Shown here: piece by piece, positions 3,376-44,474 of the stretch
How positions within the stretch are numbered: the stretch's first letter is position 1
Layout of the letters: the number at the start of each line of letters is the position of its first letter
NCBI GenBank assembly: GCA_000310025.1
Contig: FN648568.1
Coordinates: 1 to 64,000, forward strand
Reading direction: 5' to 3'
Origin: Ectocarpus siliculosus
Taxonomy: Eukaryota > Sar > Phaeophyceae > Ectocarpales > Ectocarpaceae
DNA length: 64,000 nt
The notes under the pieces: model-generated
Told to the model about the DNA's origin: nothing
Database searches by the model: none
Seen by the model: only the letters and a program-made list of their open reading frames with translations
Made by a program: the position numbers and the translations under genes

Positions 3376-4355
3376 CTAATCTGCTTCCGCTAGCAAACTC
3401 TTGAAAACCACGTTGTGAACTTTCGCAAAGACATCACCGTCGATCCTGTCACTAGTAGTGAGGATGATGATATCGTCAGACTTGCGTACTCGAGACAGGC
3501 CGACATACAAATGCCCGTGCGCGAAGGGGTGACGCGTGAGGTCAATACAAGTTTTGTCCAACGTTTGTCCTTGCGCCCGATGCACCGTCAAACAGAAGCA
3601 CAAACGTACGGGAAACTGGACGCGCTTGACCGCTACCCCCTGATCCGTCACAAAATTGAATGCGATACGTGGCAACCAGAACATTTTACCGTGGTCCAAT
3701 GTCTGAAGTTTTAACGTAAAGGGTTGAATCGCGACAACAACAACTTTCGTGCCATTCGTGAGGCAGTCATCTATGGACAAATTCCTGCAAAGCATTACGA
3801 CGACCCCTACGTTGAGGTTGATGTCGTGTGACGGGACGCCGCTGTGCTCCATCTGGTTCAAAAACTGAGACATACGGAAGAAATCATCGACGTCTGGGTC
3901 GAGGTGCTTGTGATCGAGCATCGTTCTACCTTGCAAGGTGTACGTTTCACCATTCACTCTCGCCAATACGGCCGCATTGACACGAGCGACGGAATCATTG
4001 TGGGTAGAAATGATGCCGCGCTTGGCACAAGCAGAGGGATTTTGGAGGACGTCATCAGGAAAAACGAAATCGATGGCGACATCCAAAGCTTCTTCAGTCC
4101 GCACGCCAGTAATAGTTATCAACCCGGCTTCATCAATATCAGAAACGCCATCACCTATGTCATCGACCATTTTAGAGTATCGGGGGTCGTCCTTGTTGCG
4201 CATTGTTTTGCTGAGATGAAATATTTCCACGTTGTCGCGGTAGTATGCGCTCGACAGCACGGATGCCGCGGTGGTCTCGGCTTCGCCTCCATTTGGTACG
4301 ACGGGTGGCAGTTGTCTCGTATCTCCAGCCAGGACGACCACTTTTCCAGGAAAGG
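3376..4355 (-). CDS. PIF1/Helitron-type DNA helicase, C-terminal part
   Basis: This minus-strand ORF carries the second half of a superfamily 1B (PIF1/RecD-like) helicase. Reading from 4355 down there is motif III (LAGDTRQLPPV), an LSKTMR block, a segment with NLNVGVVVMLCRNL and an NGTKVVVV word (motif V region), and motif VI in the form HRAQGQTLDK followed by FAHGHLYVGLSRV. The frame stays open to 4524, but residues before 4355 resemble nothing. A good acceptor (TCGTACAG) precedes the conserved part, so an upstream exon is likely or was lost. I could not find Walker A or the DE(x)M Walker B on the minus strand in the next kilobase. The family unwinds DNA or powers Helitron rolling-circle transposition. 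FAHGxLYV is shared by Helitrons and free-standing PIF1s, so the choice between them is open. Without Walker A this copy is probably inactive. Confidence 0.75.
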
Positions 4356-5324
4356 CTGTACGAAGAGTAGATATCGGGGAGGATATGCACGGCATCGGAT
4401 TCGAGGCGGGAGGCGGTTGAATGGTGACGGAGTTGAGTGGGTCGTGATGAAAGCGTCGACAAATGCGCACGTACATGTATGTCGATGTGGGTGAAATATG
4501 TGCAATGGGGTTGTTCGGCATCAATGGGCGGTGGGATGTGATGAAGACGTCGGAAAATTCACAGGGATATACGTACTTGTCAGCGTGGCAAAATAGACGA
4601 TTTTGCTCACCTCCTGTCGACGGGGAAGAGGCCGTGGGGGGGACATCGTTTTGGAGAACGTCGCGGTGACAGTCGACGACGGGGTCTGTGGCATAGTATC
4701 ACGCAAGGTATGCAGTTGACGCGCGGTGGGAAGTATGGTAAATGCTGTGCCGGATGACGCCTTACGTTGAAAACCATGCGTAGAGGATTTGTGAAATGTC
4801 ATTCATTTTGGATTTGAAAGTGACAGTCGAGTTCTGCAAAAACACATGTATCGCTGTCGGTAGCCGGGTGGGTTGACGGGTGTCATGATCGCGGGTTGGC
4901 CAACATGTTTTGGTCCGTATGCACGAATGCATCGCTTGCGATGACGTCTCGAAATCCAGTACCGATTCATGCTCCACGCACAGGTGGCGTAGGGCGTGTC
5001 GGACCCGAAAAGACCAATATGTATGGTGTTCGCACCACTCAAGTAGCGATCGTAGAGAATTCGCAAACATTCCAAAGGTCATCGGTTCGCATCGAAGCCG
5101 TTTCCCGAGTTCAAACGATTTGTGACGGTCCGGTATGGGGCAGGGAATAATCCGTCGAAGTGGAATCGCTATCGGACACCACGAAAGTGAGAATTGAAGT
5201 TTGTGTAAAGCATTAGAGGGAAGAGGGGTAACGCGGAACACGGTCCGGGGTGGAATAGGGAAGTCGTTTGGTCGCGTACATGAAGAGGAATATAGGTATA
5301 GTACTCCTATACAAATGAACTCAC
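4356..5324 (-). other. Possible exons linking helicase and charged protein; unresolved
   Basis: Two open minus-strand frames overlap at about 4763-5355 and 4803-5075, and a consensus donor (GAG then GTGAGC) sits near 4608. No known motif is visible. They may be exons of one gene running from 6460 down to 3376, but no consistent joins could be chosen. Confidence 0.25.
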
Positions 5325-6460
5325 CAACCATTCCTTGGCGTTGGTTGGTGAACATTTCTTCGCCGTACGCGTCTTGGAAATGTGGCTAGTATCGCGTGTT
5401 TCGCGCAACGTGACTATGGCGCGGCATACAGGCAACTGTGACAAAATTGTGGGATCCAGGGTTCGGGAGCCGTGCTGTCGTCCCCCTTGGCCGCGAGGAA
5501 ATATCGAGAAATTATTGCATGATCGGTTGCCATAGAGGGGACCCTGGTGCCGCATGCCACAAACGTTGGGCAACCTTCTGTCGTACATACCTCGATCCCT
5601 TTGTGGGCCCGGGCCTCGAGAGCCTTTGCCCGGCTCCCCCTGACCCGCTCCGCCTCGAGAGACGCTTTGTAGGCCGTCTGCCTCTCCTCCTCGGCCTCGC
5701 GCGAAGTCCGCTTCGCTATTGCATCTAGCGTTGCTTTATCCTCACGGCTCTCGGTCAGCCGTGCATGCATTTGCCCCTTGTCCCCCTTGTCCTTGGCCGC
5801 TTTGCCCTTGCCTTTCTTGGCCTTGCTCCCGTCGCCCTTGCCTTTCTTGCCCTTGCCCCCGTCGGCCTTGCCTTTCTTGCCCTTTCCCCCGTCGGCGCTG
5901 CCCTCTTTCTTCTTGCTGTTGTCTGAAGCCAGATCCACTGGCGCACCGGCTGCTCCAGCGCGCTTTGAGGTGGGATGTTTGTTTGCTGCTGCGGCGCTCT
6001 TAGAAGAGCTTCCCTGAGCAGGGCGCCCTGCAGGGCCATCCTCCGCGAGATTCAAGATGTCTGCGGCCGCGCCGGGATGCTTGCTCGCTTTCCTCGCGGA
6101 TGCGGCTGCAGGCCTACCGGCGGAAGTACGTGTCGCCCCCTTCCTTGCCCCGGACTTCCGCGACATGCTACCGCCGCTCGAATCCTCCTCGTCGACCTCC
6201 TCCACGTCGCTGTCCTCCTCCTCGGTCACCTCCTTGTCGCTGTCCTCCTGGGCGCCGTCGCCCTCATCGCTTGATGAGCTGTCCGAGCTATAGGAGCGAC
6301 CGTCGTCAGTACCCCGGTCCGAGTCGCTCAGGACGTCGAGGTTAAAGCAGCTCCCTTTGCCGGTGGACCAGGGACAGGGCGAAGCTGACCCTGACCTTGT
6401 GCGTGACGCCCTTACAAGCGTGTCGCGCTGCGTTGAGGAAAGCCGTCGCGTAGGGGGCAT
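5325..6460 (-). CDS. Charged Lys/Gly- and Asp/Glu-rich protein, first two exons
   Basis: Exon 1 runs from an ATG at 6460 down to 5591, exactly 290 codons, and stops at a consensus donor (GAG then GTATGT). Exon 2 is predicted at 5435-5325, 37 codons, between a TTTTGTCACAG acceptor and a GTGAGT donor. Both junctions are phase 0. Exon 1 encodes a Ser/Asp/Glu acidic tract at about residues 45-90, an Ala/Lys/Ser-rich stretch, a GKGKKGKADGG-type tandem repeat at about 175-215, and a charged, probably coiled-coil segment rich in Arg, Glu and Ala at about 230-290. This composition is typical of nuclear or chromatin-associated proteins but matches no family I can name. The next exons downstream are unresolved. 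The start lies about 50 bp from the retrotransposon Gag reading frame on the other strand, so the element may have landed in its promoter or leader. Confidence 0.5.
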
Positions 6461-6509
6461 CGTAGCGCGAAACAGTTTCCGCAGTGACGTTAGGGAAGGG
6501 AGGTGTGAA

Positions 6510-7330
6510 ACTTGGTGAGGAAGAGCGGCGACGGGCTCAACAAACCACAGGATTCCCACCGAGGGAGGCACGGAGACTCGCAGTCGGAGTTCCTCAGAGA
6601 TCACTACCATCTCGGCCGGTGGACCAGTGGGACGCGTCAGGAAACGGCGTAAACCTCGCAAAAACTCGTCCAGCTCGTCCTCTTCGAGCACCTCTTCGTC
6701 CAGCTCGTCTTCTTCGTCTTCATCGTCTTCTGCAGCAGGTGATTTCCAGGCTCGTTCTCTAGACACTAGACTTTTAGGTCTCACCATTGACGGATTAATC
6801 GAGTTCGTCAACACCAGCATTTTTGCGACGTCTGAAGCGAAGGATGCTGGCCTTGCGCTAGTGTACAAGATCTCGTTCGATTTAGCTTCTCTGCGTGATC
6901 AGACGGCTGGACGTCTGCTTTACAGCCCCCTTTGGTCGTCCAAGAAACGTCGGCGGCTTGAGCGGCTGGTGATTGATCTGCGTAGTGTGCGGGCGGCGGA
7001 TGTGGGCATCTCCGCTCGTCCGAGGGAGGATGTGGACACTTCTGCACGTTCGAGGTCTGGTTCGGCGGGCTCGGGGGGTCGCCGCTCCCAAATGGGGGGG
7101 CAACCCTCGGAACCTTCCAGGTGGGGCACTTCTGCGTCTGCTGGGTCCTACCATTCCTCTCGTACTCACGACCGCCCGCATACACAGAAATACCTCAGGC
7201 AGGATGCAGGCCGTTCGCGAGGACATGACTCCCGCGGACGCACGGATGCTCATCCGGGTGCCGGCGGGGATAGCCACCGGAATGACGGGGGAGGTAGCCG
7301 CCGGAATGCCGGGGGGGGGAGGCTTCTGAC
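6510..7330 (+). pseudogene. Gag N-terminal region (Ser-rich, basic)
   Basis: An open frame from about 6510 codes for a Ser/Thr/Arg-rich start, a basic block (GRVRKRRKPRK), a long serine run at 6668-6735, and a folded-looking segment (LLGLTIDGLIEFVNT onward) followed by an Arg/Gly/Ser-rich tail to about 7320. It then runs out of frame. Fragments of the continuing protein can be read in the second frame at about 7330-7430 and the first frame at about 7436-7605 before joining the long Gag frame at 7562. I infer a once-continuous Gag broken by several indels, one next to a G9 run at 7311-7319. No single start codon is certain. Confidence 0.55.
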
Positions 7331-7561
7331 CGTGGCGGGCACACTCATCTCTCCTACTATGGTCCGACTAATAGCAGGCAAGCACAGTATGGTATCGCAG
7401 GACAAAATGTGCCGTTTTTTTCCAGCAGCCGTGCGCCGTAGATGCGCTTGGAAACCCGTACCCGTTGCAGCCGCCGTTCATGGCTCCAGGGGGTCAACAG
7501 TGGCCGGTGACAATGCAGGACCCGATTACTGTCGCTTCTGCCCAAATGTCTGTCGGCCACC

Positions 7562-9757
7562 ATGCCCCCGGTCAGTTCTTTGCCGCCTCACATTGCTGAA
7601 ACGTCGGTCAAAGCGACCCAACCCATCGTTGACCACCCCGAGCCTGAGCTAGAACGTGCACGACAGCTATTGCATCGCATGTCTTTGTCGAGTTTTCCCC
7701 AGCAGCGGCAACCGTCGGCGACGGCGTCGCCGTCGGTAGCGGCTTTTGACGTGCCGTCGTCGAGACTTCCGTCGCCGATGTCGCCGCTGTCGGGGCCGTC
7801 GCCGCCGGTACCGCCGTTGCAGATGCCACCGCAGCCGGTGCTGCAGCCGTCGGTGCCGCCGGTGCCGATGCCGCAGGTACCGCAGCCGTCGGTGTCGCAG
7901 CCGCCGGTGCCGCAATCGTCGGTGCCGCAGCCGCCGGCGGCGCAGCAGCTGCCGGCACCGCCGCCGTCAGTGCTGCAGCCGCCGGTACCGCTGGTGCCGC
8001 CGGTGCCACCGGTGCCGCAGCCGCCGGTGATGCCACAACAGCCCGTGCCATTAGTAAAGTCAGAGCCACTGTCAGTAGCCTCCGCTTTGCCATCGCATAC
8101 ATCATTTGCCGCTGTGAAAACAGAGGTACCGCCCCCCGCCTCCGTTGTGAAAACGGAGACGACACAGGTTTCTGGGGTGGTACCGACGCTCGCCCAACGT
8201 GTTTTGCCACAGGAACCACCCGTCTCGGCTATCGCGGTGTCGGTAGCGAGGCCACCGCTGCCGGCCGTGCACGCGGCCGCCAGCGATTCCGCTGATGACC
8301 GGGCACTGCCCCTGTCGTCTGCCGGTGCACGCACCGCGCAGGCACAGCTTGATGCAAACGCCGTTGCCGCCGCAGAGGCGTACGCCCTCAGCGTGCGCAA
8401 AGGATACGGCAAGCTTAAAGTGAACGAATTGTATGCGGTAGTGCCGCTTCCCCCGGCAGAATTTTCTGCCTTCGCTCGTTCGACCGAAAGTGTGTTGGCT
8501 GAAATCCTGTCGGCCCCCGATCCCTCCGGCCAGCAGAACATCAAGTCGCCCTCATGGGTGGCTGGATGGTATGCCCCCTTTCACAAGCGTGTCCTCATGG
8601 CCATTTCGAACCCTCAAGGCGCCAATGCCGCAACCCGCGAATTGGTGGATTCTTCGTTTTCTCAGGTGAAACGTTTCTTGGAGACGAAGGACAAGTCGGG
8701 GCCTTCGGCATACCGTCGGCTGCTCAAACTGCTTGCCGATGAGTGGGAACCGAAAGGTTTCAACCGGGGCATCGACAAGCTGCAGGATTTTGGTGTGCCC
8801 AACGGCACGCCGTACAGCAAATTCGTTACGAAGTTTAAGGCGTTAGCAATGTCGGAGTTGGCCTCGCATAGGGCTTTCGCGCCGGATCTGCGCATGGTAC
8901 AGCGTGCGCTTCGGGACGCTTTGTTGGAGCAGTACCCGAATGTTCTCTCGTCTTTGCCGTTGAAAGAGAAGATTCTCCACAACGTGGTGTTTAGTGATCA
9001 GGATGAGCTTTGGGATGCTTTGTCGTCGGAGGAAGCACTAAAACACTCGCCCGCCTGCAACGGCGACCGTTATTTTACCACTGTCACCTCTGGGTTTTCA
9101 TCGGCGCCCACACGAGCCATGACTGCGACCGTGGGGCAGCAGCGGCCGCCACCGCCGCCGCCGCTGCAGCCGTCCGGGTGGTCGCCGGGAACACAATTTC
9201 CCGCCGGGGTGATGGCTATCGACCCTGTGCCGTCCGATAACACATGTCCATTCGAGCAGGACTACGACTGCTGGCCGTTGCGTGGTCACTACGGCTTTGT
9301 GTACAGCGTTGTGGCAAGTATGGCTAACATGGACCCCCCTTTGTTTACACCGCTGTTGACCCCTGCCGACCGAGCGCAAGCTCTGCGGCGATTTTCTGGC
9401 CATTGTCTCAACTGCGGGCAGGCAGGCCACAGCCTCAAAACTTGCCCGTATGCTTTCACCAATTACACCGGCCTCTTAAACCCGGCCATTGCTTCTCATG
9501 CTGATAGCGTTCACGTTTTTCAACGTCGGCAAAGCCGCATGAAGTCGCACCGCCCGCGTGTACACAATAAAAATGGCCCGGGTAAGAGCAGCGGCCATAC
9601 ACAGGGCGACGGCCGCCGCTCTGGGAAGCGTAACTCAACTACACACGCACCACCTCCGGCGCCGGCCGTAGGCGCCGCCGCGACCCCGGCGCCCGCCGCC
9701 GTACCTGGAACTCCGTACACTCGAAGTTCCGGAACCCCGCACACGCGGGGTAACTGA
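7562..9757 (+). CDS. gag: Gag polyprotein core with CCHC zinc knuckle
   Basis: A 731-residue open frame. Residues about 70-165 are a Pro/Val/Gln-rich tract. A helical capsid-like region spans about 265-500. A CCHC zinc knuckle with C615, C618, H623 and C628 has perfect CX2CX4HX4C spacing. Basic Ser/His/Arg-rich and Pro/Ala-rich tails follow to the TGA at 9755. Gag forms the particle and binds element RNA through the knuckle. The listed start is only the first in-frame ATG; the true protein probably started upstream in what is now another frame. The same frame stays open past the TGA into the following segments, so the stop is either a mutation or a suppressible Gag terminator. Strong antisense open frames here come from the GC-rich codon repeats. 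Confidence 0.8.
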   Translation: MPPVSSLPPHIAETSVKATQPIVDHPEPELERARQLLHRMSLSSFPQQRQPSATASPSVAAFDVPSSRLPSPMSPLSGPSPPVPPLQMPPQPVLQPSVPPVPMPQVPQPSVSQPPVPQSSVPQPPAAQQLPAPPPSVLQPPVPLVPPVPPVPQPPVMPQQPVPLVKSEPLSVASALPSHTSFAAVKTEVPPPASVVKTETTQVSGVVPTLAQRVLPQEPPVSAIAVSVARPPLPAVHAAASDSADDRALPLSSAGARTAQAQLDANAVAAAEAYALSVRKGYGKLKVNELYAVVPLPPAEFSAFARSTESVLAEILSAPDPSGQQNIKSPSWVAGWYAPFHKRVLMAISNPQGANAATRELVDSSFSQVKRFLETKDKSGPSAYRRLLKLLADEWEPKGFNRGIDKLQDFGVPNGTPYSKFVTKFKALAMSELASHRAFAPDLRMVQRALRDALLEQYPNVLSSLPLKEKILHNVVFSDQDELWDALSSEEALKHSPACNGDRYFTTVTSGFSSAPTRAMTATVGQQRPPPPPPLQPSGWSPGTQFPAGVMAIDPVPSDNTCPFEQDYDCWPLRGHYGFVYSVVASMANMDPPLFTPLLTPADRAQALRRFSGHCLNCGQAGHSLKTCPYAFTNYTGLLNPAIASHADSVHVFQRRQSRMKSHRPRVHNKNGPGKSSGHTQGDGRRSGKRNSTTHAPPPAPAVGAAATPAPAAVPGTPYTRSSGTPHTRGN
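7780..8045 (+). repeat. Proline-rich coding repeat in Gag
   Basis: Imperfect 9-12 bp units (CCG CAG CCG or CCG GTG CCG with variants) encode runs such as PQPSV, PQPPV and VPPV. The low-complexity CCG repeat creates long open frames on the opposite strand (Gly/Thr-rich or Ala-rich), which are shadows. Confidence 0.7.
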
Positions 9758-10279
9758 CACGCCGGTGACGGCCTTTTGCACACATCGCCGTCAACAGCAC
9801 CGGGTGTGCGGTGTACGACTAGTTCCCAAGATGTTCGTATCACACAGACGCCTTCGGGCTCGCCTATGTTAGTTTCTCAACCTTTTGTTTCCCAGATGTC
9901 GCCTCACGCCTCATCACAGCCTGTTTTGGATGACCGACGTGACTCGTCGGCGCCGAATACAGTCTTGTGGTGTGGGCGAGGGGCCGACCAGACTTCGGGT
10001 GTCTCTCAGACGCTCGCCCGGATGTCTACGCCCCCCGGAGGCATGGCTCCGGCTTCTCCCACCGTTTCGGCGGCTCCGGGTGGTCTCGTCAACCACGCTG
10101 GAGCACAGGAACCTTCGGGACAACCGCAGGCCCGCCGCGGTGGCTCGAGTACGCTTGTACCCACCGCGCCCCCTCCGGACCCCTCGCGACGTTCCTCTAC
10201 GGAGCACCAACGTCGCACGGTGCTGACTGCACCGCCGTTGCCGAGCGCAAGTAATGGTTTCCCCAAATCGGAAGGTTAA
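9758..10279 (+). pseudogene. Gag-to-protease linker between two in-frame stops
   Basis: This stretch continues the Gag frame without a break. It lies between a TGA at 9755-9757 and a TAA at 10277-10279. It encodes a Ser/Pro/Thr/Arg-rich, probably disordered peptide of about 173 residues with no known domain. It looks like part of one Gag-NADAR-protease frame. Whether the stops are decay or read-through signals cannot be settled from one copy. Confidence 0.55.
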
Positions 10280-10285
10280 TGTTCT

Positions 10286-12136
10286 TTGTCACGAAATAGC
10301 GGTCCCGAGCCTCCCGCGGCCACTGACCATGTTGGTCGAGCGCCCGCGATGAAGGCCGCTTTTAATGAACAGGCCTACGCCGACGTTTTGCGCGAAAACG
10401 CCCGCGTAGACCGCTTGGTTTCGCACGCTTCTGCGGCTGGTTCACCGCTCTTGCCTGCCTCTCCTCGTAACCCACAATCCGGCCCGCCTTCGGGCGGCAC
10501 CCAGATTGTCCTGCCGGTTGCCGGTGCCATTTCTCTTGATGATATTTCTTCGGGGAAGGTAAGCGCACCCGCGCGGCAGGCCCCTGTTTTTGACGGTTGC
10601 CAGGAATACTATAACGATGAGGTTTTCCTCTTTTGGAAACCGCCGTCCTTTCTGTCTAACTGGACGCCCTGTGAGTTCTCGGTTCATGGCATTCGCTACG
10701 TGTGCGGCGAACAGTTCATGATGGCGGAGAAAGCCCGCAATTTCGACGATGATGCCGCTTATGCCAAAATCATGGCTACCTCCGACCCGAGAGAACACAA
10801 GTCCCTTGGTCGCAAGGTACGCGGTTTTGACCATGCTCTATGGGAACTCCGGCGCGAGGATGTTGTCTTTTCGCTTTTGTATGCAAAATTCGCCCAAAAT
10901 GTTGATGCGCGTGAACGTTTGTTGGCTACGGGTGATAGACAGATAGCGGAGGCCAGTCCTTATGACGGATTGTGGGGCATTGGTGTTGATGCCTCCGATC
11001 CGCGTGCGGCGTCGCCCTCCAAGTGGACTGGTAAAAACCTCTTGGGCAAAGCGCTTGTTGCGACGCGCACGCTTCTGCGTGTGCGCCCGGTCGAACCCGA
11101 TAAGCCTTTACGCCCTGAACACTCGGGGCAACCTGCTCCCGTGTGTCCCACTATCCACGAAATTGCGCCCCCGGGTGAGGACTCTTCGGCCAATGATTCC
11201 TCGCCCGAGGACGCGCGCGGCCCGCTGGACGTGCCAGCCAACACGCCCGCGGACCACTCGAAACAGGTGCTGCATATTGCCTCTGCTGCTTTTCGCGAAG
11301 CCGCCGCTTCCCCACCGCCGCTATTGGCGGAACACGGCCCAGATTTGGTGAGCGGTGATGTTTTAGTAGATTGCGATACCTCTACGACGCGAGTCCGCGT
11401 TCATAGTGGTACCGGAGCCGTGTGTACAGCGCCTGGTGTAGCCCTTTTGGACTCGGGCTCACCTTCATCTTTCATTAGTGATGCTTTCCTTGAAGCCATG
11501 GAGGCGTCAGGAGCTGCATCCGTCCACAGTCGTCGTTCGGTGCCCGTTCGGCAGTGGGGTGGTTTTGGCTCTGGCAATGCCCTTGAAACCACCTCATCCG
11601 TGCGGCTGTCCGTTCAATTTTTTTATGGTGATAGTGCCACCGCTTCGTTAGCGGTGTGGGTGTATGTTGTCCCAGCTGCTGCCATGGGCCACGCCCTCCT
11701 TCTTGGACGTGATAGTTGGATGCGTTTTAACTCTCGTTTGTCCACTACTTTGCCCACGCGGTCGGCAAGTGGACGCATTATGGAGAAACTTTCTCTGTCA
11801 TCGGATTTTGCGGCGGGAGCTTCCGCGTATGTCGCTGGACCCTCCGCCCCCGGGGCATCTTACTTCCTGCGGTACGCCGGCAGGAAGGGTGTCTCCCTTT
11901 CAGATAAACCCACTTTGACGAGGGTGAACCTCGTTCGCAACTCTGGCACCCTCGCTCTCACCGGCAACTATCTTGTCACGTTTTTACCGAAACACGGCGC
12001 CCTCTCGGCGTCGGACGCGTTTGTTTCGGACGGGCCTCAAAACATCCCATTGACAGGGTGCGCCGAGTTGGAGCCAGGTGAGGTGCTTGGGAGTGGCGAC
12101 TGCCCCACTTGTGCAGATTCCGCTTGCGTCGATTGA
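10286..12136 (+). CDS. NADAR domain fused to retroviral-type aspartic protease
   Basis: A 616-residue open frame in the same frame as Gag. Residues about 105-266 match the NADAR (YbiA/DUF1768) fold. They include FLSNW (122-126), GEQFMMAEKA with Glu142, a KFAQN segment, an ERLLATGD block, DGLWGIG (Asp227, Trp230) and WTGKNLLGKAL before a TRTLLR end. In the family the Glu, Asp and Trp sites line the pocket. Characterised members act on ADP-ribose-linked guanine or on riboflavin-pathway intermediates by N-glycosidic cleavage. A disordered linker follows, then the protease: DSGS at 389-392 and the LLLGRDSWM flap-side motif near 475. The protease frame ends at 12136, where pol continues in the next frame. 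The NADAR pocket motifs are all intact although the rest of the element is broken. Confidence 0.85.
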   Translation: MSRNSGPEPPAATDHVGRAPAMKAAFNEQAYADVLRENARVDRLVSHASAAGSPLLPASPRNPQSGPPSGGTQIVLPVAGAISLDDISSGKVSAPARQAPVFDGCQEYYNDEVFLFWKPPSFLSNWTPCEFSVHGIRYVCGEQFMMAEKARNFDDDAAYAKIMATSDPREHKSLGRKVRGFDHALWELRREDVVFSLLYAKFAQNVDARERLLATGDRQIAEASPYDGLWGIGVDASDPRAASPSKWTGKNLLGKALVATRTLLRVRPVEPDKPLRPEHSGQPAPVCPTIHEIAPPGEDSSANDSSPEDARGPLDVPANTPADHSKQVLHIASAAFREAAASPPPLLAEHGPDLVSGDVLVDCDTSTTRVRVHSGTGAVCTAPGVALLDSGSPSSFISDAFLEAMEASGAASVHSRRSVPVRQWGGFGSGNALETTSSVRLSVQFFYGDSATASLAVWVYVVPAAAMGHALLLGRDSWMRFNSRLSTTLPTRSASGRIMEKLSLSSDFAAGASAYVAGPSAPGASYFLRYAGRKGVSLSDKPTLTRVNLVRNSGTLALTGNYLVTFLPKHGALSASDAFVSDGPQNIPLTGCAELEPGEVLGSGDCPTCADSACVD

Positions 12137-12650
12137 TCCTACACCGCAGACGGCCGAGGGTGTTGGGTTGAGTGACCCTCCGCCGCCAGCCCGTTCCGCG
12201 GATGAACCGCCGCCTCGCGTGAATTCTTTGCATTCAAACATCCCGGTTGCGGATCCGGAGATCTCGGATTCCCCCGCGGCCTCACTGCCGCCGAAACCGC
12301 CGCCACCGGATCTGTTGGAACGCCTCTCAGAAGCGCAGCGAGTGAGTTTTCGCGAGTTGTGGCAACGTTTGGCTGCACATTTGCACGATGTGACTTTTGA
12401 TTTACATGACTCGGGTTGGACCCCGGAAGCCATCGACAGCCTCGCGGATGTGCTGTGTGACTTTTCGGATGTGTTTTCGCGGTCACCGTCCGATTTCGGT
12501 TGCTGTTCCGTGAAACCGTTTCGTTTGGAAGTGCCCCCGGGCACGAAACCGTTGGCCTCGCGTCCCTATAGGCTCAACCCACTGGTGGAGAAAAAGGTCG
12601 ATGCAATTCTCGATCAATACCTTGCTGCCGGTCTTATTCAGCACTCGTAA
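12078..12650 (+). pseudogene. pol: Pol: linker and N-terminal part of reverse transcriptase
   Basis: After the protease the reading frame moves from frame 2 to frame 3 at about 12090-12110. A Pro/Ser-rich linker leads into LLERLSEAQRVSF, an ADVLCDFSDVFSR segment and the fingers of RT (FRLEVPPGTKPLASRPYRLNP, as shorter motifs around 12500-12580). The frame stops at TAA 12648-12650, immediately before the conserved SPWAS block, which is still readable in the same frame after the stop. The stop is therefore a mutation inside RT. Confidence 0.75.
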
Positions 12651-12677
12651 TCGCCGTGGGCGAGCCTTCTGGTTGTC

Positions 12678-14789
12678 ATGCCTAAAAAGGACGGCAATCT
12701 GCGTTTGACCGTGAACTACAAAAAGCTTAACAAATTGTGCAGCCTTGGTCAACAACCGCAGCCGCGAGTTGACCACATCATCGATTCCCTGCACAAGGGC
12801 AAGGTATTTTCGATTTTCGATCTTAACTCCGCTTTCCACCAAATCACCGTCGAAGAGGACACGGTTCAGCTTACGGCGTTCTGTACGCCCACGCAACTTT
12901 TCGAGTGGCTTCGCATGCCTCAGGGAAGCTCCGTGTCACCGTCGTGGTTCACCATGGTCATCAACGAAGCGGTTAACGGTCTGGACCATGTGCTTGCATA
13001 CCTGGACGATGTGATTGTGTTTGACGCCGACCCCATCCACCATGTCGCCAACATACGGCTATTTTTGGAGCGTTTGCGCAAGTTCAACCTCAAGCTTTCT
13101 CTATTCAAGAGTCGCGTCGGCGCTAAGGAGGCTGTTTATTTAGGTCACACAATCTCCCCTGCGGGTGTTAGTCCTCGTGCCGATAATGTCGAAGCCCTCA
13201 CAAAAATGCCGCTGCCTAACAACGTCAAAAAGCTGCGTTCCTTGCTGGGTGGGCTTTCGTATTACCGCCAATTCATCAAGGGTCTGGCCATGCGCGTGAA
13301 ACCACTCACAGACCTTTTGCGTAAGGACGCGAAATTTTGTTTTACGCCGGCTATGGCGGATACTGTCAAAGAACTCTTGACGAAACTGTCCGAACCTCCG
13401 GTTTCGGCTTTCCCGGATTGGGACGCTGTCGCAGATGGCAGCCGCCCACTCCGGCTTTGCTGTGACGCCTGCATCGATGGTTTTGGTGCGGCCCTTGAAC
13501 AGGAACAGGCCGATGGTTCAATCCGTCCCATTCTGTTCGTTAGCCGCGCTACGCTCGAATCCGAGCCCAATTGGACAGTGCTCGACTTGGAAGCTGGAAG
13601 TATCGTGTGGGCAATTAAACGCTTACGCGGTTATTTTTGGTCTACGCAATTTCTGATTTATTCGGATAACAAGGCTTTGGAGAGCATCGTCAAGGTGGGT
13701 GAACACAACGCCCGCGTCCAACGTTGGCTCGAGTTCCTTTCCTCGTTCAATTACACCCTTGTCTACCGCAAAGGCACTGCCAACGCCAATGCGGATATTC
13801 TTTCGCGGTTGCCCCTGCCGGCAACCGACGCGGATAGACGCGGTGACACCAGTATCGCAGTCGATGACGCCGCGGGCGTGTATCTCATTCGTGCGTGCGG
13901 ACGGAGTTATCACTCTAGTTCGACGCCGAACATTGGCTTGGGTGGGCTTGACATTGACGATCAACGAGACGCGTTGGCACACGCGCCTCTGACGGAGGAT
14001 GACTTTGGGGACTTCCGCCGTTTTGGGCCACAAATGGTCCTGCCGGCTCTGTCGCTCCCCTCCGTAGTGGATTCGTCGAAATTTTCGCCGCCTGGTGTTT
14101 TCGCTGTCGTTTGCGATGCAGCCCCCGAGAGTTCTGTGCCCGATGGACCTCCTCCGGCGGAGCCAGACGTCGCTCCCTCGTCCACCGTCGGAACCTCCTC
14201 AGCTGCCCTGTCGCTTTCGCGTGGCCCTCTGATTTTTTCTCGTACCCGGGCGAGAACGAATTCGGCCTCGGGCATGGCTCACAGCCGTCCCAATTATTTT
14301 CCGCAACAACCACGGGCCGTTGTGGTGCCCAGACCGCCGCGACCTCCTCGAACGCCGGCCCGGTCGAGCCGTGCCGCGCGGTCTACGAGAACCGTGGGTA
14401 GCCCTACTTCTGGCCCGCTGCCTTCTTCGGCGCCGGCTGAATTGCAGCCGCCGCCGCCCGCACCTGCAGCCGTCACCCCGGCGCCACCGCCGCCCGCGGC
14501 GCCCATGCCGACAGTGTTGTCGCCCGCGGGTACTAGCCCTGCGACTTCCGTGGTGCCACCCACGGCCGCTGAGGAAGCCCACCTCCGCGACTGTGTGCAT
14601 ACACTCTCGCATGCCGATTGGGCCCGAGAACAGCTGTCAGAAAGTGAGTGTGTAGCGGCTATACATTTTTTGTCTTTGGGATCCCCGGCGGTTTTGCCGG
14701 ATACATTCTGGGATTGCTTGCCCTGTGCGCGACGGCCGGCGTTGTCTGATGTTGTCGCCCTCGCATCTAAAACATGCCTACATAGATGA
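12678..14789 (+). CDS. pol: Pol: reverse transcriptase and RNase H
   Basis: A 703-residue frame, continuing the previous one after its stop. RT shows VPKKxG-like MPKKDGNLRL, the first catalytic Asp in SIFDLNSAFHQI (Asp48), and YLDD at residues 108-111 for the other two. RNase H follows with CCDACIDGFGAAL, LDLEAGSIVWAIK, YSDNKALE and ANADILSRLP, supplying the D-E-D-D residues. From about residue 380 a long Asp/Ser/Pro-rich linker with PPPP runs joins RNase H to integrase. A short folded segment before the frame end (about 14590-14780) belongs to the integrase N-terminus. RT copies element RNA and RNase H removes it. All catalytic residues are present, yet this copy cannot be made whole because of flanking breaks. 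Confidence 0.9.
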   Translation: MPKKDGNLRLTVNYKKLNKLCSLGQQPQPRVDHIIDSLHKGKVFSIFDLNSAFHQITVEEDTVQLTAFCTPTQLFEWLRMPQGSSVSPSWFTMVINEAVNGLDHVLAYLDDVIVFDADPIHHVANIRLFLERLRKFNLKLSLFKSRVGAKEAVYLGHTISPAGVSPRADNVEALTKMPLPNNVKKLRSLLGGLSYYRQFIKGLAMRVKPLTDLLRKDAKFCFTPAMADTVKELLTKLSEPPVSAFPDWDAVADGSRPLRLCCDACIDGFGAALEQEQADGSIRPILFVSRATLESEPNWTVLDLEAGSIVWAIKRLRGYFWSTQFLIYSDNKALESIVKVGEHNARVQRWLEFLSSFNYTLVYRKGTANANADILSRLPLPATDADRRGDTSIAVDDAAGVYLIRACGRSYHSSSTPNIGLGGLDIDDQRDALAHAPLTEDDFGDFRRFGPQMVLPALSLPSVVDSSKFSPPGVFAVVCDAAPESSVPDGPPPAEPDVAPSSTVGTSSAALSLSRGPLIFSRTRARTNSASGMAHSRPNYFPQQPRAVVVPRPPRPPRTPARSSRAARSTRTVGSPTSGPLPSSAPAELQPPPPAPAAVTPAPPPPAAPMPTVLSPAGTSPATSVVPPTAAEEAHLRDCVHTLSHADWAREQLSESECVAAIHFLSLGSPAVLPDTFWDCLPCARRPALSDVVALASKTCLHR

Positions 14790-15770
14790 TGGTACGCGAT
14801 TGTTGGTGCGAAATTCTGCCCCACTGCCTCTCGGTAGTTCGGGCGCGCGTATCACTCGCCTCCTGCCGTCGAAGACTCCGCGCATATACGTGCCTATGCT
14901 ATTGCGACCTTGGGTCCTACAAGCATGTCACGCCACCGCGTCTTTTCACCTGGGCACCGCTCAGACTTTACGTATGTTAGAGCGAAATTCTGGTGGATTG
15001 GGATGGATTTGTCCGTTCGTTGGTGGCTTCGGCATTGTTAAATTTGCCAAGCGCGCCAAGACTTCCCGGCAAACGTATCGCTGGCCTACGCTCACTCTGC
15101 CCCTCCCGAATGGGCCGGGTATTGTAGTGAGCGTCGATTTTTTTGGGCCATTGCCGGTCACGTCCCGTGGGAATGCATATATACTTTTGTTTACGGACCG
15201 TTTCAGTCGACGGGCGGATACGTATACCACTACCAAGGCGGAATTTACCGCTAAGGGAACGGCTAACATTTTCGTCAACCGCTACATGGCGTTGTGGGGT
15301 TGTCCGGTGACCCTTCTTTCGGATAACGGTATGCAATTTTGTTCCAAGTTGTCCATGGCTATTTACGGGCTGATGAAGATCAAGAAAGTCTCCACCAGCT
15401 CGTACCACCCCCAAACTAACGGTGGGGCCGAGCGTGTTAACCACACCATGGCTCAAATGCTTGCTGTTGTGGTCAATGAGCGTCAGGACGATTGGGACGT
15501 CCATCTTCCCCATGTCGAGTTTGCATACAACAACTCGGTAAACACCGCCACAGGTTTGGCGCCGAATGAAGTGCATATTGGACGGTTGCCCCGTCTCCCG
15601 CTTTCTGTTTTGGACCACCCTAGCGTGGGTGGTCATCAAAGTTTAGATCGAGACCAGCTCGCTTTCTGCAATCTTGCGGTGGAACGCCAGAGACGAGCGT
15701 ACGCGTTGGTGCGGGAACAACATGCGATTACGGTGTCGCGTGTCGAACGTCGTAACTCTGCACTGACTGT
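14788..15770 (+). pseudogene. pol: Pol: integrase (zinc-binding and DDE core)
   Basis: Frame 1 takes over at about 14786. The catalytic triad is complete: Asp in VSVDFFGPLP (codon at 15136), Asp in LLSDNGMQF (15322) and Glu in GGAERVN (15430), with exactly 35 residues between the last two. The HHCC zinc finger keeps its two His (CHATASFHLG), but the paired Cys are out of frame. Between about 14985 and 15057 two indels shift the frame and restore it, and the lost segment, with both Cys and a stop between them, is readable in another frame. At about 15770 the protein passes to frame 3. Integrase inserts the DNA copy. Confidence 0.85.
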
Positions 15771-16415
15771 TTGGACGGTCTGCGTCAGATCCCGAAATAC
15801 GAAGTTGGTGGTTGGGCTTGGGTCTACAACTCTGCCGCTACTATTCGGCAGGGTGTGCGGAAACACACCGATGATTCGGTGCTCAAAGCGAAGCTTTCGC
15901 TCAACTACACCGGACCGTATAAAATCCTTGCTGTTGGCCCGGCCAAAGCGGAGGATTCACCGGATGGAAACCCTGTGGAGCGCAAACTTCTCTACCTGGA
16001 CCTGCCGTCAGACATGCTAGGACCAGAATCCTGCAACCGTGTCTCCGTCTTGCGGTGCAAACCGTGTACCAACCCATACGACACGGATGACCTGCCTAAG
16101 TATATGCCGGCCAATCTGTCGAAATATGTTTTGCACTCGTATAGTAACAAGTCTCCCCCATATAATTTGACTGCTGATGATATTTTAGCGGAGTCTAGTC
16201 GTCTGGATGTTGAGAATATTTCAGGACACCAAATTGTACGCGGTGGTGTGGTAGCTGTCTTGTACCTGACCCATTGGATTGGTTTGTTGACACCGTCGTG
16301 GGAAAGGGAGTCTGATTTGCAGGAATACAGAAAACACATTCTGCTTTACTGGTCTGGTAACGCTAGTCAGCGCGTACAAGGAAACCGAGCTTATCGTAAT
16401 GCTCGGATACTGTAG
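15771..16415 (+). pseudogene. pol: Pol: integrase C-terminus with GPY/F module and chromodomain
   Basis: The frame begins mid-protein. It shows the GPY/F module (NYTGPYKILAVGP, about 15903-15941), a VSVLRCKPC segment, and at about 16230-16345 a chromodomain-like block with GGVVAVLYLTHWIG and SWERESDLQEY. Chromodomains on gypsy integrases bind histone marks and direct insertion. The frame ends at a TAG shortly after the domain (16413), with protein continuing in frame 2. Confidence 0.75.
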
Positions 16416-16416
16416 C

Positions 16417-16735
16417 TTCGGCCGACCGAGAACTTGCTCGGAATCAGGCCGAACGTTTCATTGCTCCTGGGTACGAGTTGGTTTCGCGTGACATTTGGTT
16501 GGCTCGCTTCTCTGTTTCTGTTTTGCCTGTCGGAGCCCACATTTGGTACAAAGCTTTAGATGGACTTTGGTGGCTTGGGCAGATTAGCAGTACATTGTTC
16601 GATTTTTGGACACCCCCGGCCCTCGAAAGCTTTCTCTCCCGGAATATAGTTACTCCACGGTTTGGATGCTCCTTGTGGTTCTTGGTGCTTGCAAAAACAC
16701 CGTACTCGTGGTTTGACCAACCCTTCCACGGATGA
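16417..16735 (+). pseudogene. Tudor/Agenet-like tail of the retroelement
   Basis: Frame 2 from about 16417 reads ADRELARNQAERF and then, near residues 25-40 of the later ATG frame (16478), VGAHIWYKALDGLWWLGQIS. The WYK-x-DGxWWLGxI arrangement is that of a Tudor/Agenet-like beta-barrel strand pair, which binds methylated residues. A further indel at about 16600 moves the end of the domain into frame 3. The fold call is by pattern only. Confidence 0.5.
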
Positions 16736-17460
16736 TGGCGTTATGTCGCGAACACCAGGCGTTGTGGCACAGTTGGCTGTTGCCCCATCTGGATCTGTTC
16801 TTTGATATCATGCCGCCTACGGGCCGCTACATGTTTTTTATGTGTTGTTCTACATAGTACGCAGTGGTACGCTAGCGCGTGTGTGTTTGGGTGGTGTGAG
16901 CTTCTTCTATTGTTGCAATAGTCACCCCGACCTTTGCGTGCCCAACGCGACCGAACCCCATTTTGATTCAGACTGGTTCCGTCGTTGGCGATGTGATTCT
17001 CAGTAGTCATCACTGTGTGGTGTGGGGATGGTTTGGAGTATTTGTCGGGGATGGAATATTTTCTCTGACCCTAGTTGCTTTTATTTTATCTTATTTTGAC
17101 GATGAAGTATCTGCATCTACGACTTCCCAGGGTGGGCTAATGTAATGGAGCAACTAGTGTATTTGCATTGTACGAGCGTTTCATGAACGTTGTATGAGCG
17201 CTTATTGGATATTTTGAATTTTCTTTGGATATGGATATTTGGCGACGTTGAGGGGTATTGAAGTAGCTTGAAGGAAGATCAAAATCCCAGCCCCGCTCCC
17301 TCACTCTCCGAGTGGGCGCTAAGCGGACCTGGTCAAAGAAGGCTAAACAAGAGATCAAACAACAACTGTGAGTACCCGAAGCCAGGCGCAACGAACTTGC
17401 TCCCTTCCCTCTTTTATTTCTCTGTTCCTCCATAACATTGTGGGGATTGTGTGTGTACCC
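16736..17460 (+). other. 3' non-coding end of the retroelement; candidate LTR
   Basis: No protein is visible after about 16735. A purine-biased CCAGGGTGGGC at about 17128-17138 precedes TGTAATGGAG at about 17141, which could start a 3' LTR ending in ATAACA near 17440. I did not find a second copy upstream of Gag, so this is only a guess. Confidence 0.3.
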
Positions 17461-18306
17461 CAGCACGTAGCAGCAGAAGCCGACGCCCACCGACGCTAGT
17501 CGGTGTGATAGCTCGTGGAGCTTGTCGCAACAGAAGCACAGCAGTACTTCAGAAGAAGACGGAGATAGGCAGAAACACCAGACAGACGGTTGTAGTCCAG
17601 CCAATATGCCAGCAGCATCCAAGGTACGACAAGGAGAGCTAGAGTACCCAGACGGTCTGACAGATCACAGAGAGAGATCCCAAAGAGTGGTATCGTGCAC
17701 CGAACAACAGAACGAGCTACAAACTACGTACAGCTCTCAGTTCCTAACCCTCCGCATACGTTACGTTCCAACCGATACATACATAACACATTCGTCATTC
17801 GTCTACATACTAGGCAGTAGTACATTTACTACGATAGGACATGCGTAGGCATTTCCATAACAGGGGTCATATTCAAAACATGGTGTCCACGTGTTCCAAG
17901 AAGTCCACTGTAGTTTGTAATGGCGCAATCACTACGGAGTTGACGTTAGCAACACACAATACAACGAAATGTGAGAGCTGCTCTGTACGTTACACACCAT
18001 CTACAACTAGTATTATGACAGAACAAGGCACGTCCCACTCGTCTACCATGCCAGAAGCCTACCCACGCCGTCGAAGTCTACGACACATTCACCGGACATA
18101 CAACCGTCACCTCGAAGGCACAAAACGTTGGAACCCACAGCACATCATCCTCCACCCTCGGGTGAATCTATATCCCGATGCTGGCCATAAACATTGGTGC
18201 CTAGCCACCATAGTGCCCGTTTCCCCCCCAAAAATGCGTTGATGCCGATTGGCCCGCGGTCAAGACTACCCTTTGGGTGCCAACCATTGGTACTACGCCA
18301 TCGAAG
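17461..18306. other. No supported gene; small perfect hairpin
   Basis: Short plus-strand frames occur, rich in Ser, Thr and Arg, without domains. A 7-bp stem (CACCGAC/GTCGGTG) with a 4-base loop lies near 17488-17505. Nothing else is assignable. Confidence 0.4.
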
Positions 18307-19358
18307 TTAGCGTTCGTCCAGTGGTTGTACGTCCCAGCGAAGCGCCAGTGTCGGAGGAAGAAGTCTGGCCATGGTAGTGTTCATGAACCGTATGGTTTCT
18401 ACGGGAAGACCGTGAGTACCATAACCTCCGTCATGTGAACGTTGTTGATGAGCATTCCACACTTCGGCTGCCTGTGCTTCAGAACACTCAAGGCCGATGA
18501 AAGCGGCTATGGCGATGAATCCAATGTGGCTTTCCTAGACAACGTAAGTGAAAGTAACGAAACAAAATATGATGATGGTTAGGCAGGTGTAGTACACATA
18601 TGTGAACGAAGCATTCTCCGGGTTAGTCATCGCTTCATAATATCAGGCATCAGGCAGGTTGACACTTTGTCGCGTCTCTTTCTCTACTTTACACTGACTG
18701 ATCTTTGAAACAACAAATAAATGCAACAGTTTGAAGCGCGCATACAACTTTCGGGGTGTTGCAACTGTAGTGGGGCGTCGATTCTGGAACGACATCGTAC
18801 AACACCTGCGTACCTGCAAGTCATCGTAAACAACGACATGGGACGAGCGTTCCATCAGGGGGCCAGTATGCCACATGTATCGTTGATGCATCCACGAGAC
18901 TATCACCTGCATTGATGCAGGTGCGTTATCCAACAAATTCTTTGTCGGTGGGTGTCAAAGCGCCTAGCGCATATTGCCGACGGGTGAATGAAGCTTGCCC
19001 ACGTTCACAGGCGCCATTAGTGGACCCTAGCTTACCGCAGAACCACAATGCCGGTACCCTCAAATACATATGTCAATAACGATCCTCACCGAAGACACCA
19101 AGGCTCTCGACAGGCGTACATCGCAGTGCAAGTAATTTCAATCCATGTGCCGAACTCTAGACTGCAAGTTATTTGCGCCTCCAACCACAAATGAATTGTT
19201 CGACTCACAATATGAATTCTTGACTCACCTCGAACTTCCACTTGACAAACTCGTCCAAGGAACGATATCCGACGGGCATGGGGTTGCTACCGCCATTTGT
19301 CCGCATCTTGTACTCCGATATCACAACGTTTCGTGGGTCCCGCATGATGACTAGGGAC
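18307..19358 (-). CDS. Sulfotransferase, three 3'-terminal exons
   Basis: Three exons join in perfect phase. Exon A is 19358-19229 (acceptor TTCCAG, donor GAG/GTGAGT), exon B is 18906-18814 (acceptor TGCAG, donor CAG/GTACGC, 31 codons) and exon C is 18534-18307 (acceptor TCTAG, 76 codons ending in TAA). Exon A holds the PAPS 3'-phosphate site VIMRDPRNVVISEYKMR. Exon B has a WMHQRYMWH helix and HVVVYDDLQ, the family's (V/I)xYEDL position. Exon C has IAAFIGLECS, YGTHGLPVETIRFMN and MARLLPPTLALRWDV, a usual C-terminal helix pair. The enzyme would move sulfate from PAPS to a sugar or other alcohol; such genes are numerous in brown algae. The 5' PAPS loop exon was not found. The sequence upstream is non-committal and then low-complexity, so the gene may be truncated. 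Frames are intact. Confidence 0.75.
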
Positions 19359-27156: not shown

Positions 27157-27201
27157 TTGTTTTGTGGAAGTCCTTAAAGTATGAATAGAAGTGCATGAAC
27201 G

Positions 27202-27447
27202 TTCATGACATTCCATCTAGTTCCATGGAAGCCATGAAAGTCCATGGAAGTTCATGACATTCCATCTAGTTCCATGGAAGCCATGAAAGTCCATGGAAGT
27301 TCATGACATTCCATCTAGTTCCATGGAAGCCATGAAAGTCCATGGAAGTTCATGACATTCCATCTAGTTCCATGGAAGCCATGAAAGTCCATGGAAGTTC
27401 ATGACATTCCATCTAGTTCCATGGAAGCCATGAAAGTCCATGGAAGT
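27202..27447 (+). repeat. 49-bp tandem repeat, five near-identical copies
   Basis: The unit begins TTCATGACATTCCATCTAG and ends CATGAAAGTCCATGGAAG. Starts at 27202, 27251, 27300, 27349 and 27398 give an exact 49-bp period with essentially no differences, so the array is recent. It is built from the CCATGGA/GTCCATGAA words of the satellite at 24240. Confidence 0.95.
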
Positions 27448-27514
27448 TCATGGAAATCCATGGACTTCCACAGAAATTTCCATTAACTTCCATGGAAAAG
27501 TACGAAAATGTACA

Positions 27515-34904: not shown

Positions 34905-36420
34905 TCTGCACCACACACATAAATAGTGTGTGGCGGGCGTGGTTGGTGGGCGTGTTTTCGCAAGAGCGCTACTTGCCAGGGTTATTGCCTGTGTGGCGAT
35001 TCACGCATGAATACAGAGGGTATGAATGCCGGCACCACACACATAAACAGTGTGTGGCGGCCGTGGTTGGTGATCTTGTTTTCGCAAGAGCGCTACCTAT
35101 TAGGGTTGTTTCCTGTGAGTGATTCCCGCATAAATACAAAGAAAGTGTAAAGACCGGAACCACACACAGGAAAAGTGTATGGCGGCCTTGGTCGGTGGGC
35201 TTGTTTGTCAACAGCGCTACTTACCGGGGTTGTTGCCTGTGGGGCAATTCACGCATAGTTACAGAAAGTGTAAATGCGGGAACCACACACATACATAGTG
35301 CGTGGCGGCCGTGGTCGGTGGGCTACTTACCAGGGTTGTTGCCTGTGGGGCAATTCACGCATGAATACAGAAAGCGTGAATGCCGGAACCACACACATGA
35401 AAAGTGTGCGGCGGCCGTCGTTGGTAGGCTTGTTTGTCAATAGCGCTACTTACCGGGGTTGTTTCCTGTGGGCAATTAACGCATGAATACAGAAGTGTGT
35501 GAATCCCGGAACCACACGCATGAGAAGTGTGTGGCGGCCGTGGTTGGTGGGCTTGTTTGTCAACAGCGCTAACCCTAAGGGTTGTCGCCGGTGGGCGATT
35601 CACGCATGAATATAGAGAGTGTAAATGCCGACACTATACACATGAATAGCGCGTGGCGGCCGGAGTTGGTGGATATGTTCCGTTTTTCAACAAGCGCTAC
35701 CAACGAGAGTTGCCGCCGGGGGTGATTCACGCATGAATACAGAGAATGTAACTGCCCGAAACCCACGCATGAGTAGGGGTGGCGGTCGGAGTCGGTGGAC
35801 TTATTTGTTTTCAACAAGTGCTACCTACGAGAGTTGTTGCCTGTGGGGCGATTCACGCACAGGTACAGAGAGCACTGGCAGAACCATACACATGAACAGT
35901 GTGAGGCGGCCGTGTTTGGTGTACTTTTGTTTTCATCAAGCGCTAACTACTGTACGAGACTTGTCGCCGGGGGCGATTCACGCACAGACATAGAGAGTGT
36001 AACAGCCGGAACCACACGCATGAGTAGAGAGTGGCGGCCGGAGTTGATGGACTTGTTTTCGCAACAGCGCTACATGCCTCCTCGAGTTCTCGCCTTGGGC
36101 GATTTACGCAGTCTGTTTATGCCAGAACCAAACACACCAATCGTGTTTGGCGGCCGTGGTTGGTGAGCTTGTCGTTTCTGAACATGGCTATCTACCAGGG
36201 TTGTCGCGTGGGGCGATTCGCGCAGGTCAGTTTCGCCGGAACGTAACACATCAATCGTGTTTGGCGGCCGTGGCTGGTGAGCTTCGTTTTGAACAGTCGC
36301 ACCTGCCAGGGTTGTCGCATGGGGCGATTCACGCAGTTTTTTTTTGTTTTTATGCTAGTACCGATCGTGTGTGACGGCCGTGGTTGGTGAGCTTCTGCTG
36401 CCTACCACACCACGAAATAG
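34905..36420 (+). repeat. Satellite array, about 105-125 bp units
   Basis: About a dozen units. The consensus order is GTGTGGCGGCCGTGGTTGGT, GGGCTTGTTT, CAACAGCGCTAC, AGGGTTGTTGCCTGTGGGGC, GATTCACGCATGAATACAGA and GCCGGAACCACACACATGAA. Units diverge steadily toward 36.4 kb, where the sequence turns into MGR-type variants. Open frames crossing the array are periodic artefacts. Confidence 0.95.
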
Positions 36421-37075
36421 ACCGTGTACCAGGTAGGCTTCTATTTCTGCTGCTACATAGACGAGTATATTGCCGTCGGTAACGGTGATCGGTCGCTGGA
36501 TTTCTCGCACTATTGCCAAAGACCGAGCCTATTGACAGATGACTTGTGCAATCTATTGCAAATTGAAAGGCCTGTCAAATGTCACGATAGACATCGTTGG
36601 CAACAACAGACTTCGAAGGCTTCCTTCCGGTAGACATTGCGGGCAGTATTAGAAGAAGCCTTCGAACATGTTCTCGTTGCAAGTGGATATCCTTTACGAC
36701 CTTGAGGACAGATTGCTCGAGATAACGACGATCGATGTTGCGTTTCGATATATATCGGTAGCCCGCTCAAGAATCTACTGCAGTAAAACGATGTATATCG
36801 ATGACATATGATGAACCCAGTGGCAATGGCTTCCGAGAAAACCGGCGAACGTCGGTTGCTATGCACAATTCATATCAATAGGCACCATCGAAATCTGTTA
36901 CGGTTGACATAAGATATCGACGGAACCTTTTGAATAATTTGTTGTCCTTGACAAGGGAGGTCGAAAGGAGCTTTCAAAATCTACTGTTTTGGACAATGGA
37001 TATCGGGACAAACCTCTCAAAATCTATGGTCCCCAACAAGGGATGTCGATATTTGATGTTGTCACTCGTGGTCCA
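36421..37075. other. Spacer between satellite blocks
   Basis: Not satellite. A local duplication of about 35 bp (AAAATCTA-, GGACAATGGATATCGGGACA and CAAGGGATGTCGATAT words) lies at 36945-37060. No gene is supported. Confidence 0.4.
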
Positions 37076-44472: not shown

Positions 44473-44474
44473 CG

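Follow-up and report, generated by a model that had tools for sequence, protein, structure and literature searches.

A Ty3/gypsy retrotransposon family of the brown alga Ectocarpus siliculosus carries a NADAR domain in the N-terminal part of Pol, behind a UGA codon that is conserved at the gag/pol junction. Sequence comparison of the copies places the domain under purifying selection in the element lineages, and the reading to which we give a probability of about 45% is that the element NADAR acts inside the particle, where it would strip ADP-ribose from the RNA or cDNA of the element itself. A NADAR-Gypsy fusion in Ectocarpus is already published (PMC12477816, Genome Biol, September 2025), and there one of four Ectocarpus Gypsy lineages has NADAR. 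Among the open-licence papers listed by the literature searches, no NADAR-retroelement fusion was seen reported beyond that paper, whose main text does not contain the words 'readthrough' and 'stop codon'. Added here are the layout of the UGA junction, the selection test, the comparison of RT with NADAR, the lineage set, and a second, apparently amplified lineage.

The window, i.e. the whole stretch of 64,000 nucleotides analysed (contig FN648568.1), contains a decayed copy of the element (Table 1). The order Gag-PR-RT-RH-IN is present with the integrase behind RT, as Ty3/gypsy requires, and the RT motif YLDD is found at 12999-13010. The Gag frame gave no match in the Pfam search, and the protease shows a weak RVP_2 match (E-value = 0.017) that is under the Pfam cut-off. 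For the possible chromodomain, a lineage C copy also displays a sub-threshold match (E-value = 0.016) and a lineage B copy displays none.

Table 1. Features of the NADAR-bearing element in the window
Feature	Positions	Strand	Remarks
Ty3/gypsy element, decayed	6561..17438	+	matching span in other copies from 6561 to about 17438
Gag open frame, 748 aa	7511..9757	+	CCHC zinc knuckle 9404-9445
In-frame UGA between gag and pol, next base C	9755..9757	+	same in lineages A-F
Putative readthrough signal	9766..9809	+	6-bp stem, 9766-9771 with 9788-9793, 8 nt past UGA
Open pol part of window copy: linker, NADAR, protease	10280..12136	+	
NADAR domain, YbiA-type Glu	10631..11080	+	pocket codons 10709 (E), 10730 (K), 10949 (E)
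Aspartic protease core, LLDSGS ... LLGRDSW	11444..11719	+	LLDSGS 11444-11461
Reverse transcriptase and RNase H frame	12651..14789	+	RVT_1 6.6e-30, RT_RNaseH 1.3e-26
Integrase frame	14656..16020	+	rve 1.8e-8 (Pfam)
Frame with possible C-terminal chromodomain	15756..16415	+	E 0.013, under Pfam cut-off
3' LTR	17141..17438	+	TG...CA termini by eye

The 3' LTR has stretches of 98% and 97% identity at two other loci of the genome (L126 and L127). No LTR-like direct repeat is present between 6500-9000 and 14001-18600, and as no 5' counterpart of the 3' LTR was found, the window copy appears to be 5'-truncated. Decay is also seen in an extra TAA (10277-10279) and in two frame changes, one lying between 12136 and 12651 and one upstream of the integrase; the RT-RNase H and integrase frames are not in the Gag/NADAR frame of this copy. 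In copy L021, a single 2175 aa open frame covers the part that is broken in the window.

Several other features of the window and of the LTR were recorded. The left flank of the element (5400-6562) shows 99% identity to C117:23826-24988 up to the element border; past the border the C117 sequence has no match in the window and therefore is not a plain empty site. L126 (C30:2362900-2363600) is an internally deleted copy, with an LTR, 14 bases, and then the 3' end of the element, matching window positions 16138-16443. At 34910-37544 and 44469-44791 there are tandem arrays whose units, approximately 106-124 bp long, look related by eye and on opposite strands, and a 49-bp tandem unit at 27189-27452 is repeated 5.4 times with 98% matches and thus is probably recent. 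A frame with Pif1-like helicase domains is found at 3376-4698 on the minus strand, for which a Helitron origin is a guess, and an ankyrin-repeat frame at 1023-1910 on the plus strand.

The sequence-only reading of this DNA had described a full NADAR domain sharing one open frame, in the frame of Gag, with a DSGS protease. All of its motifs were located: FLSNW at 10649-10663, GEQFMMAEK at 10706-10732, DGLWGIG at 10964-10984, and WTGKNLLG at 11024-11047. The Pfam check it proposed for 10286-12136 yields NADAR (PF08719) at residues 118-267 of the open reading frame 10280-12136, with an E-value = 3.7e-46 and 157.8 bits against a cut-off of 35.1. Its placement of the domain after Gag and before the protease, in a Ty3/gypsy element, stands as to position. 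The gag frame continues through 9758-10279 before the NADAR-protease frame (frame-wise translation), and two in-frame stops, TGA at 9755-9757 and TAA at 10277-10279, separate Gag and NADAR; thus NADAR lies in the N-terminal part of Pol and not in Gag. The position of the TGA is kept in other copies, and the TAA is missing from two of them (L027 and L028).

Sequence matches in the PDB are to 8bau, a 'NADAR domain-containing protein' (4.8e-22), and to E. coli YbiA, 2b3w (2.5e-6). We take 8bau to be the Phytophthora nicotianae NADAR, as the residue spacing agrees with the numbering of the published protein at an offset of 2. By sequence both belong to the same family as the element NADAR; both are described as free-standing, whereas the element NADAR is part of Pol. 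The residues that surround ADP-ribose in the P. nicotianae protein are named in PMC11543638, where statements on K75 are not uniform. These positions were transferred by hand via the 8bau alignment, in which chain and published numbers differ by 2.

Nine of the 11 pocket residues are identical to P. nicotianae in the majorities of all seven copy groups, and Tyr84 is replaced by Phe in all. D86 is the sole pocket position that varies among the group majorities; the ten constant ones fall within the 65 of 153 columns where all majorities agree (hypergeometric probability = 0.0009, a value that ignores the family-wide conservation of pocket residues). E43 and K50, the catalytic Glu and Lys in P. 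nicotianae numbering, are present in the window copy and in 87 and 86, respectively, of 88 open copies. The Glu of E125 likewise occurs in the window copy and is kept in 87 of the 88. At this last position Glu marks the YbiA subfamily, Asp the BC4488 type, and His the phages (PMC11543638). Eleven database copies, from the same and other lineages, show the pocket pattern apart from isolated substitutions: Cys (P0124, P0143) or Lys (P0126) at R93, Ile at K75 in P0127, and Arg at W133 in P0126. The pocket residues are intact in the decayed window copy, as the sequence-only reading had said, and the element NADAR is probably active, with an intact ADP-ribose pocket.

Conservation of the UGA is seen at 28 of 28 recognised junctions, 23 of them from 26 stretches and five from lineage D, many being close copies. 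The junctions of L016, L023, and L028 fall outside the search pattern, although that of L028 has TGA where it would be expected. All six lineages show UGA-C followed at a spacer of 8 by a stem, with 6 pairs in A, B, C, and F and 5 pairs in D and E. Lineages A and B have U-A as the outer pair, C and F have C-G, and D and E have U.U. At the third pair, A has A-U, B has G-U, and C-F have G-C; at the fourth, D has U-G and all others have C-G. The stem arms were located by eye, the MAFFT alignment having placed the 3' arms out of register. Per lineage, the observed run of this stem is reached by 88-679 of 5000 shuffles, and A, D, E, and F also contain runs of equal or greater length at other spacings. 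No single lineage is convincing, so the weight of the stem is its recurrence at one aligned place, and the stem is thereby supported without being proven.

In the window, the loop GCACAC is able to pair with 9804-9809. A second stem of 4-6 Watson-Crick pairs, with its 3' arm 9-11 nt past the first, is found in all six lineages; runs this long occur in 87-1435 of 2000 shuffles, depending on the lineage, and the second stem is weak by itself. The two stems may form an H-type pseudoknot. The spacer after the UGA, CACGCCGG and its counterparts, is not purine-rich. According to PMC2194720, the junctions of MuLV and Tca2 have an in-frame stop and an 8-nt spacer, as in the NADAR elements, and a potential pseudoknot on the 3' side, to which the possible pseudoknot of the NADAR elements would correspond; the stop of Tca2 is likewise UGA. 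The spacers of MuLV and Tca2 are purine-rich, whereas those of the NADAR elements, in which readthrough is putative, are not.

The genome searched consists of 189.5 Mb in 492 contigs. A NADAR search gave at least 150 matches (150 of 230 candidates were scored and all 150 were above the cut-off). A search with the RT of the window element gave 430 candidates, of which 150 were scored, with identities of 51% to 100%. NADAR is found upstream of RT on the same strand and within 4 kb in 126 of these 150, and the distance is 1500-1800 bp in 121 of the 126 pairs. The pairing is present at all levels of RT identity: 24 of 30 at 84% or more, 31 of 37 at 65-75%, 62 of 72 at 56-61%, and 9 of 11 at 51-55%. 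Two of the 24 RT matches without an upstream NADAR sit within 2.4 kb of a contig start. The domain is thus at the same place in related copies, and its absence from relatives, which the sequence-only reading had named as a sign of chance insertion, is not what is found. A chance insertion is ruled out by the number of genome matches together with the RT linkage. At two loci (C3:3913787 and C489:435177), NADAR matches lie in frames of 10887 and 6365 aa, far beyond the length of Pol; stretches of N read as open might account for these.

Selection was assessed on 101 NADAR copies (the window copy and 100 of the other 149 matches). Ninety are open, and with two frameshifted ones dropped, 88 copies remained in seven groups (16, 18, 3, 25, 19, 1, and 6), some of the copies nearly identical. 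Protein identity between groups is 55-80% and synonymous sites are mostly saturated, dS being infinite in 14 of 21 group pairs. The one clearly unsaturated pair, B versus B', shows omega = 0.18 at dS = 0.87; six other finite pairs give 0.08-0.18 at dS of 2.2-3.3, near saturation, e.g. 0.08 at 2.2 for D versus E. Pooled pN/pS within groups is 0.17-0.67. Single-base codon variants private to one copy are 129 nonsynonymous to 76 synonymous; for variants found in at least two copies the ratio is 16 to 47 (odds ratio = 5.0, Fisher p = 2.3e-7, nominal given the relatedness of the copies and the exclusion of those with stops). This comparison took 84 of the 88 copies and excluded the two smallest groups, of 3 and 1. 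Groups A, B, and D supply the signal; lineage C has shared variants of 2:3, which is uninformative, and E has one shared variant. The omega of B versus B' and the variant test agree with the past selection that had been suggested from the intact pocket.

Among 11 lineage C copies, shared nonsynonymous to synonymous variants are 9:4 in the linker, 2:1 in NADAR, 2:6 from NADAR to RT, and 0:7 in RT, with too few in NADAR to separate the linker, NADAR, and RT. With one copy each of A, B, and C compared, identity is 55-63% in NADAR, 57-69% in RT, and 22-35% in the linker before NADAR.

RT and NADAR trees of seven rows (A, B, C, P0123, P0125, P0127, and P0126) have the same topology. Of the rows from the database, P0123 is C-like, P0125 is D, P0126 is F, and P0127 is labelled E with a NADAR nearer to D; from the genome searched, lineages A, B, and C supplied the RTs, and D, E, and F did not. 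The topology is still shared when P0143 is added as an eighth row, but some forks lack support: 46/7 for P0143 with A and B in the RT tree and 55/51 for F with C in the NADAR tree. A single acquisition of NADAR followed by vertical descent is the simplest account, and the trees support it without proving it. In a tree of 65 NADARs, 20 of 21 element rows and the database fragment P0001 group together (92/89). P0128 has no supported place in that tree, and a constraint that puts it with the element rows is not rejected (p = 0.56).

With the NADAR part of one pol piece as query, 5.8 billion proteins were searched and 12 matched. Both NADAR and RT are annotated in six of these, of which Ectocarpus sp. 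CCAP 1310/34 contributes four and ENA sources two. The Pol NADARs of Ectocarpus sp. CCAP 1310/34 sit among the element lineages of the window genome, and those of the Ectocarpus sp. polyproteins P0124-P0127 are placed with lineages D/E and F. When residues 245-660 of P0128 were used as query, at least 157 relatives were found (8000 candidates scored), with NADAR annotated in 116 of the 120 listed. The biggest clusters consist of 126, 89, and 76 sequences, and the contigs are up to 2.5 Mb. This suggests a second, more distant NADAR-Gypsy lineage, approximately 50% identical to P0121 of lineage C, that is amplified in at least one genome. Elsewhere in the database, NADAR is found together with PF03747 in P0129 and P0130 and together with PF13671 in P0131 and P0132. 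We take these partners to be an ADP-ribosylglycohydrolase and an AAA-type kinase domain, respectively, and they are possible context for NADAR substrates.

The host also has a standalone NADAR gene, seen as four tblastn pieces, probably exons, at C24:2125206-2127066 (L124). The pieces are 83%, 95%, 90%, and 62% identical to a protein of Ectocarpus sp. 13 AM-2016, and the 62% piece probably extends into an intron. The gene is kin to the Ectocarpus proteins P0007 and P0016 and pairs with the database NADAR P0003 (91/95), apart from the element NADARs. A clade of host and element NADARs is not rejected (AU p = 0.60-0.62), the constrained trees being 4-5 log units above the free tree. The published proposal for the origin of the element NADAR is horizontal transfer from bacteria, which these trees neither favour nor contradict.

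Accessory enzymes of this kind have counterparts in other elements. The NC-dUTPase of MPMV and MMTV is made by frameshifting and not by UGA readthrough. It is an accessory enzyme fused to the nucleocapsid in the protease frame and carried in the virion (PMC8961515), a likeness to the putatively particle-borne element NADAR, to which the dUTPase itself is unrelated. Gypsy-12_Ec32 and kin, the NADAR-bearing Gypsy lineage of Ectocarpus sp. 7, are by description the closest known system to the window family; a C-terminal chromodomain is reported for that lineage, whereas the window element shows a sub-threshold match only (PMC12477816). The same paper describes NADAR in the Tx1 LINEs of Crassostrea gigas, also retrotransposons but non-LTR, with the domain in ORF1.

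In the proposed mechanism, ribosomes would occasionally read through the gag/pol UGA, and NADAR would be made solely as Gag-NADAR-PR-RT-RH-IN. With the in-frame UGA before pol, the domain is probably a Gag-Pol product only and particle-carried, packaged at Pol stoichiometry and perhaps freed by the element protease. In the particle or pre-integration complex, it would take ADP-ribose (guanine adducts) off the element RNA or single-stranded cDNA, and so may protect reverse transcription against host marks or damage. The sequence-only reading had offered two ideas, the undoing of host ADP-ribosylation and a particle-borne enzyme; we infer that the latter is the more concrete, since NADAR is in Pol behind a conserved UGA. 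According to PMC11543638 and PMC11125620, NADARs of oomycete, bacterial, and phage origin, YbiA among them, hydrolyse guanine-linked ADP-ribose in vitro. In RNA-virus polyproteins, NADARs are proposed to counter host ADP-ribosylation (PMC9503650), and for the element NADAR a processing of the RNA intermediate has been proposed (PMC12477816). Several observations count against ADP-ribose removal from element RNA or cDNA. An exon-by-exon search of the genome, in which misses are likely, gave 0 matches for DarT, 0 for KptA, and only four short PARP-like exon matches, so that no writer of guanine-ADP-ribose was found in the alga's genome. E. coli YbiA is active in vitro and did not protect cells from DarT1 (PMC11125620), and for Tca2 a junction of similar layout did not drive readthrough in S. 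cerevisiae (PMC2194720). The uninformative variants of lineage C, the stem runs at other spacings, the 5-pair stems of D and E, and the shuffles of the second stem also count against it.

The conserved pocket would also suit an enzyme active on small molecules, either soluble ADP-ribose derivatives (signals or RNA-repair by-products) or riboflavin intermediates. According to PMC9503650, riboflavin intermediates are cleaved by NADARs acting as N-glycosidases, and soluble ADPr derivatives are the supposed targets of phage NADARs; the separate host gene suggests that the substrate is probably in the cell. A Pol-tied domain, however, would be scarce if made by readthrough, likely locked in the particle, and poor at metabolite clearance, and we regard a small-molecule role as somewhat unlikely. 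Whether NADAR only binds, either reading ADP-ribose or giving structure to the polyprotein, was also considered, as Ectocarpus Gypsy lineages are reported with chromatin readers too (PMC12477816) and activity of an element NADAR was not found reported in the literature searched. Both glutamates and the lysine are nevertheless kept in 87, 87, and 86 of the 88 open copies, and an ADP-ribose reader would depend on the ribose pocket, with no obvious need for the two acidic residues; a role in binding only therefore seems unlikely.

A protein target for ADP-ribose removal, such as Gag, integrase, or an antiviral factor of the host, would fit the four short PARP-like exon matches and the role proposed for RNA-virus macro domains (PMC9503650), but the activity demonstrated for NADAR in PMC11543638 and PMC11125620 is on guanine-linked ADP-ribose, and we hold a protein substrate to be very unlikely. 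There is practically no chance that NADAR is a passenger, i.e. a host or bacterial gene caught in one copy. The decay of the window copy would agree with a passenger, and against it stand the genome-wide matches, the RT linkage, the matching trees, the selection, the relatives from other sources, and the published presence throughout an Ectocarpus lineage (PMC12477816).

Accessory enzymes in Pol, e.g. the dUTPases of some retroviruses, hint at a threat that an element encounters as it replicates. Selection that maintains NADAR in elements with RTs down to approximately 51% identity would mean that ADP-ribose chemistry matters to a retroelement. Brown algae might tag invading retroelement nucleic acid with ADP-ribose, and this Gypsy lineage might counter with a particle-borne ADP-ribosyl-guanine hydrolase made solely by UGA readthrough, a retroelement counter-defence comparable to viral macrodomains; we hold this speculation to be quite unlikely as it stands. 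As NADARs hydrolyse guanine-linked ADP-ribose in vitro, the element NADAR offers a direct handle on whether brown algae ADP-ribosylate nucleic acid at all and whether this restrains retroelements.
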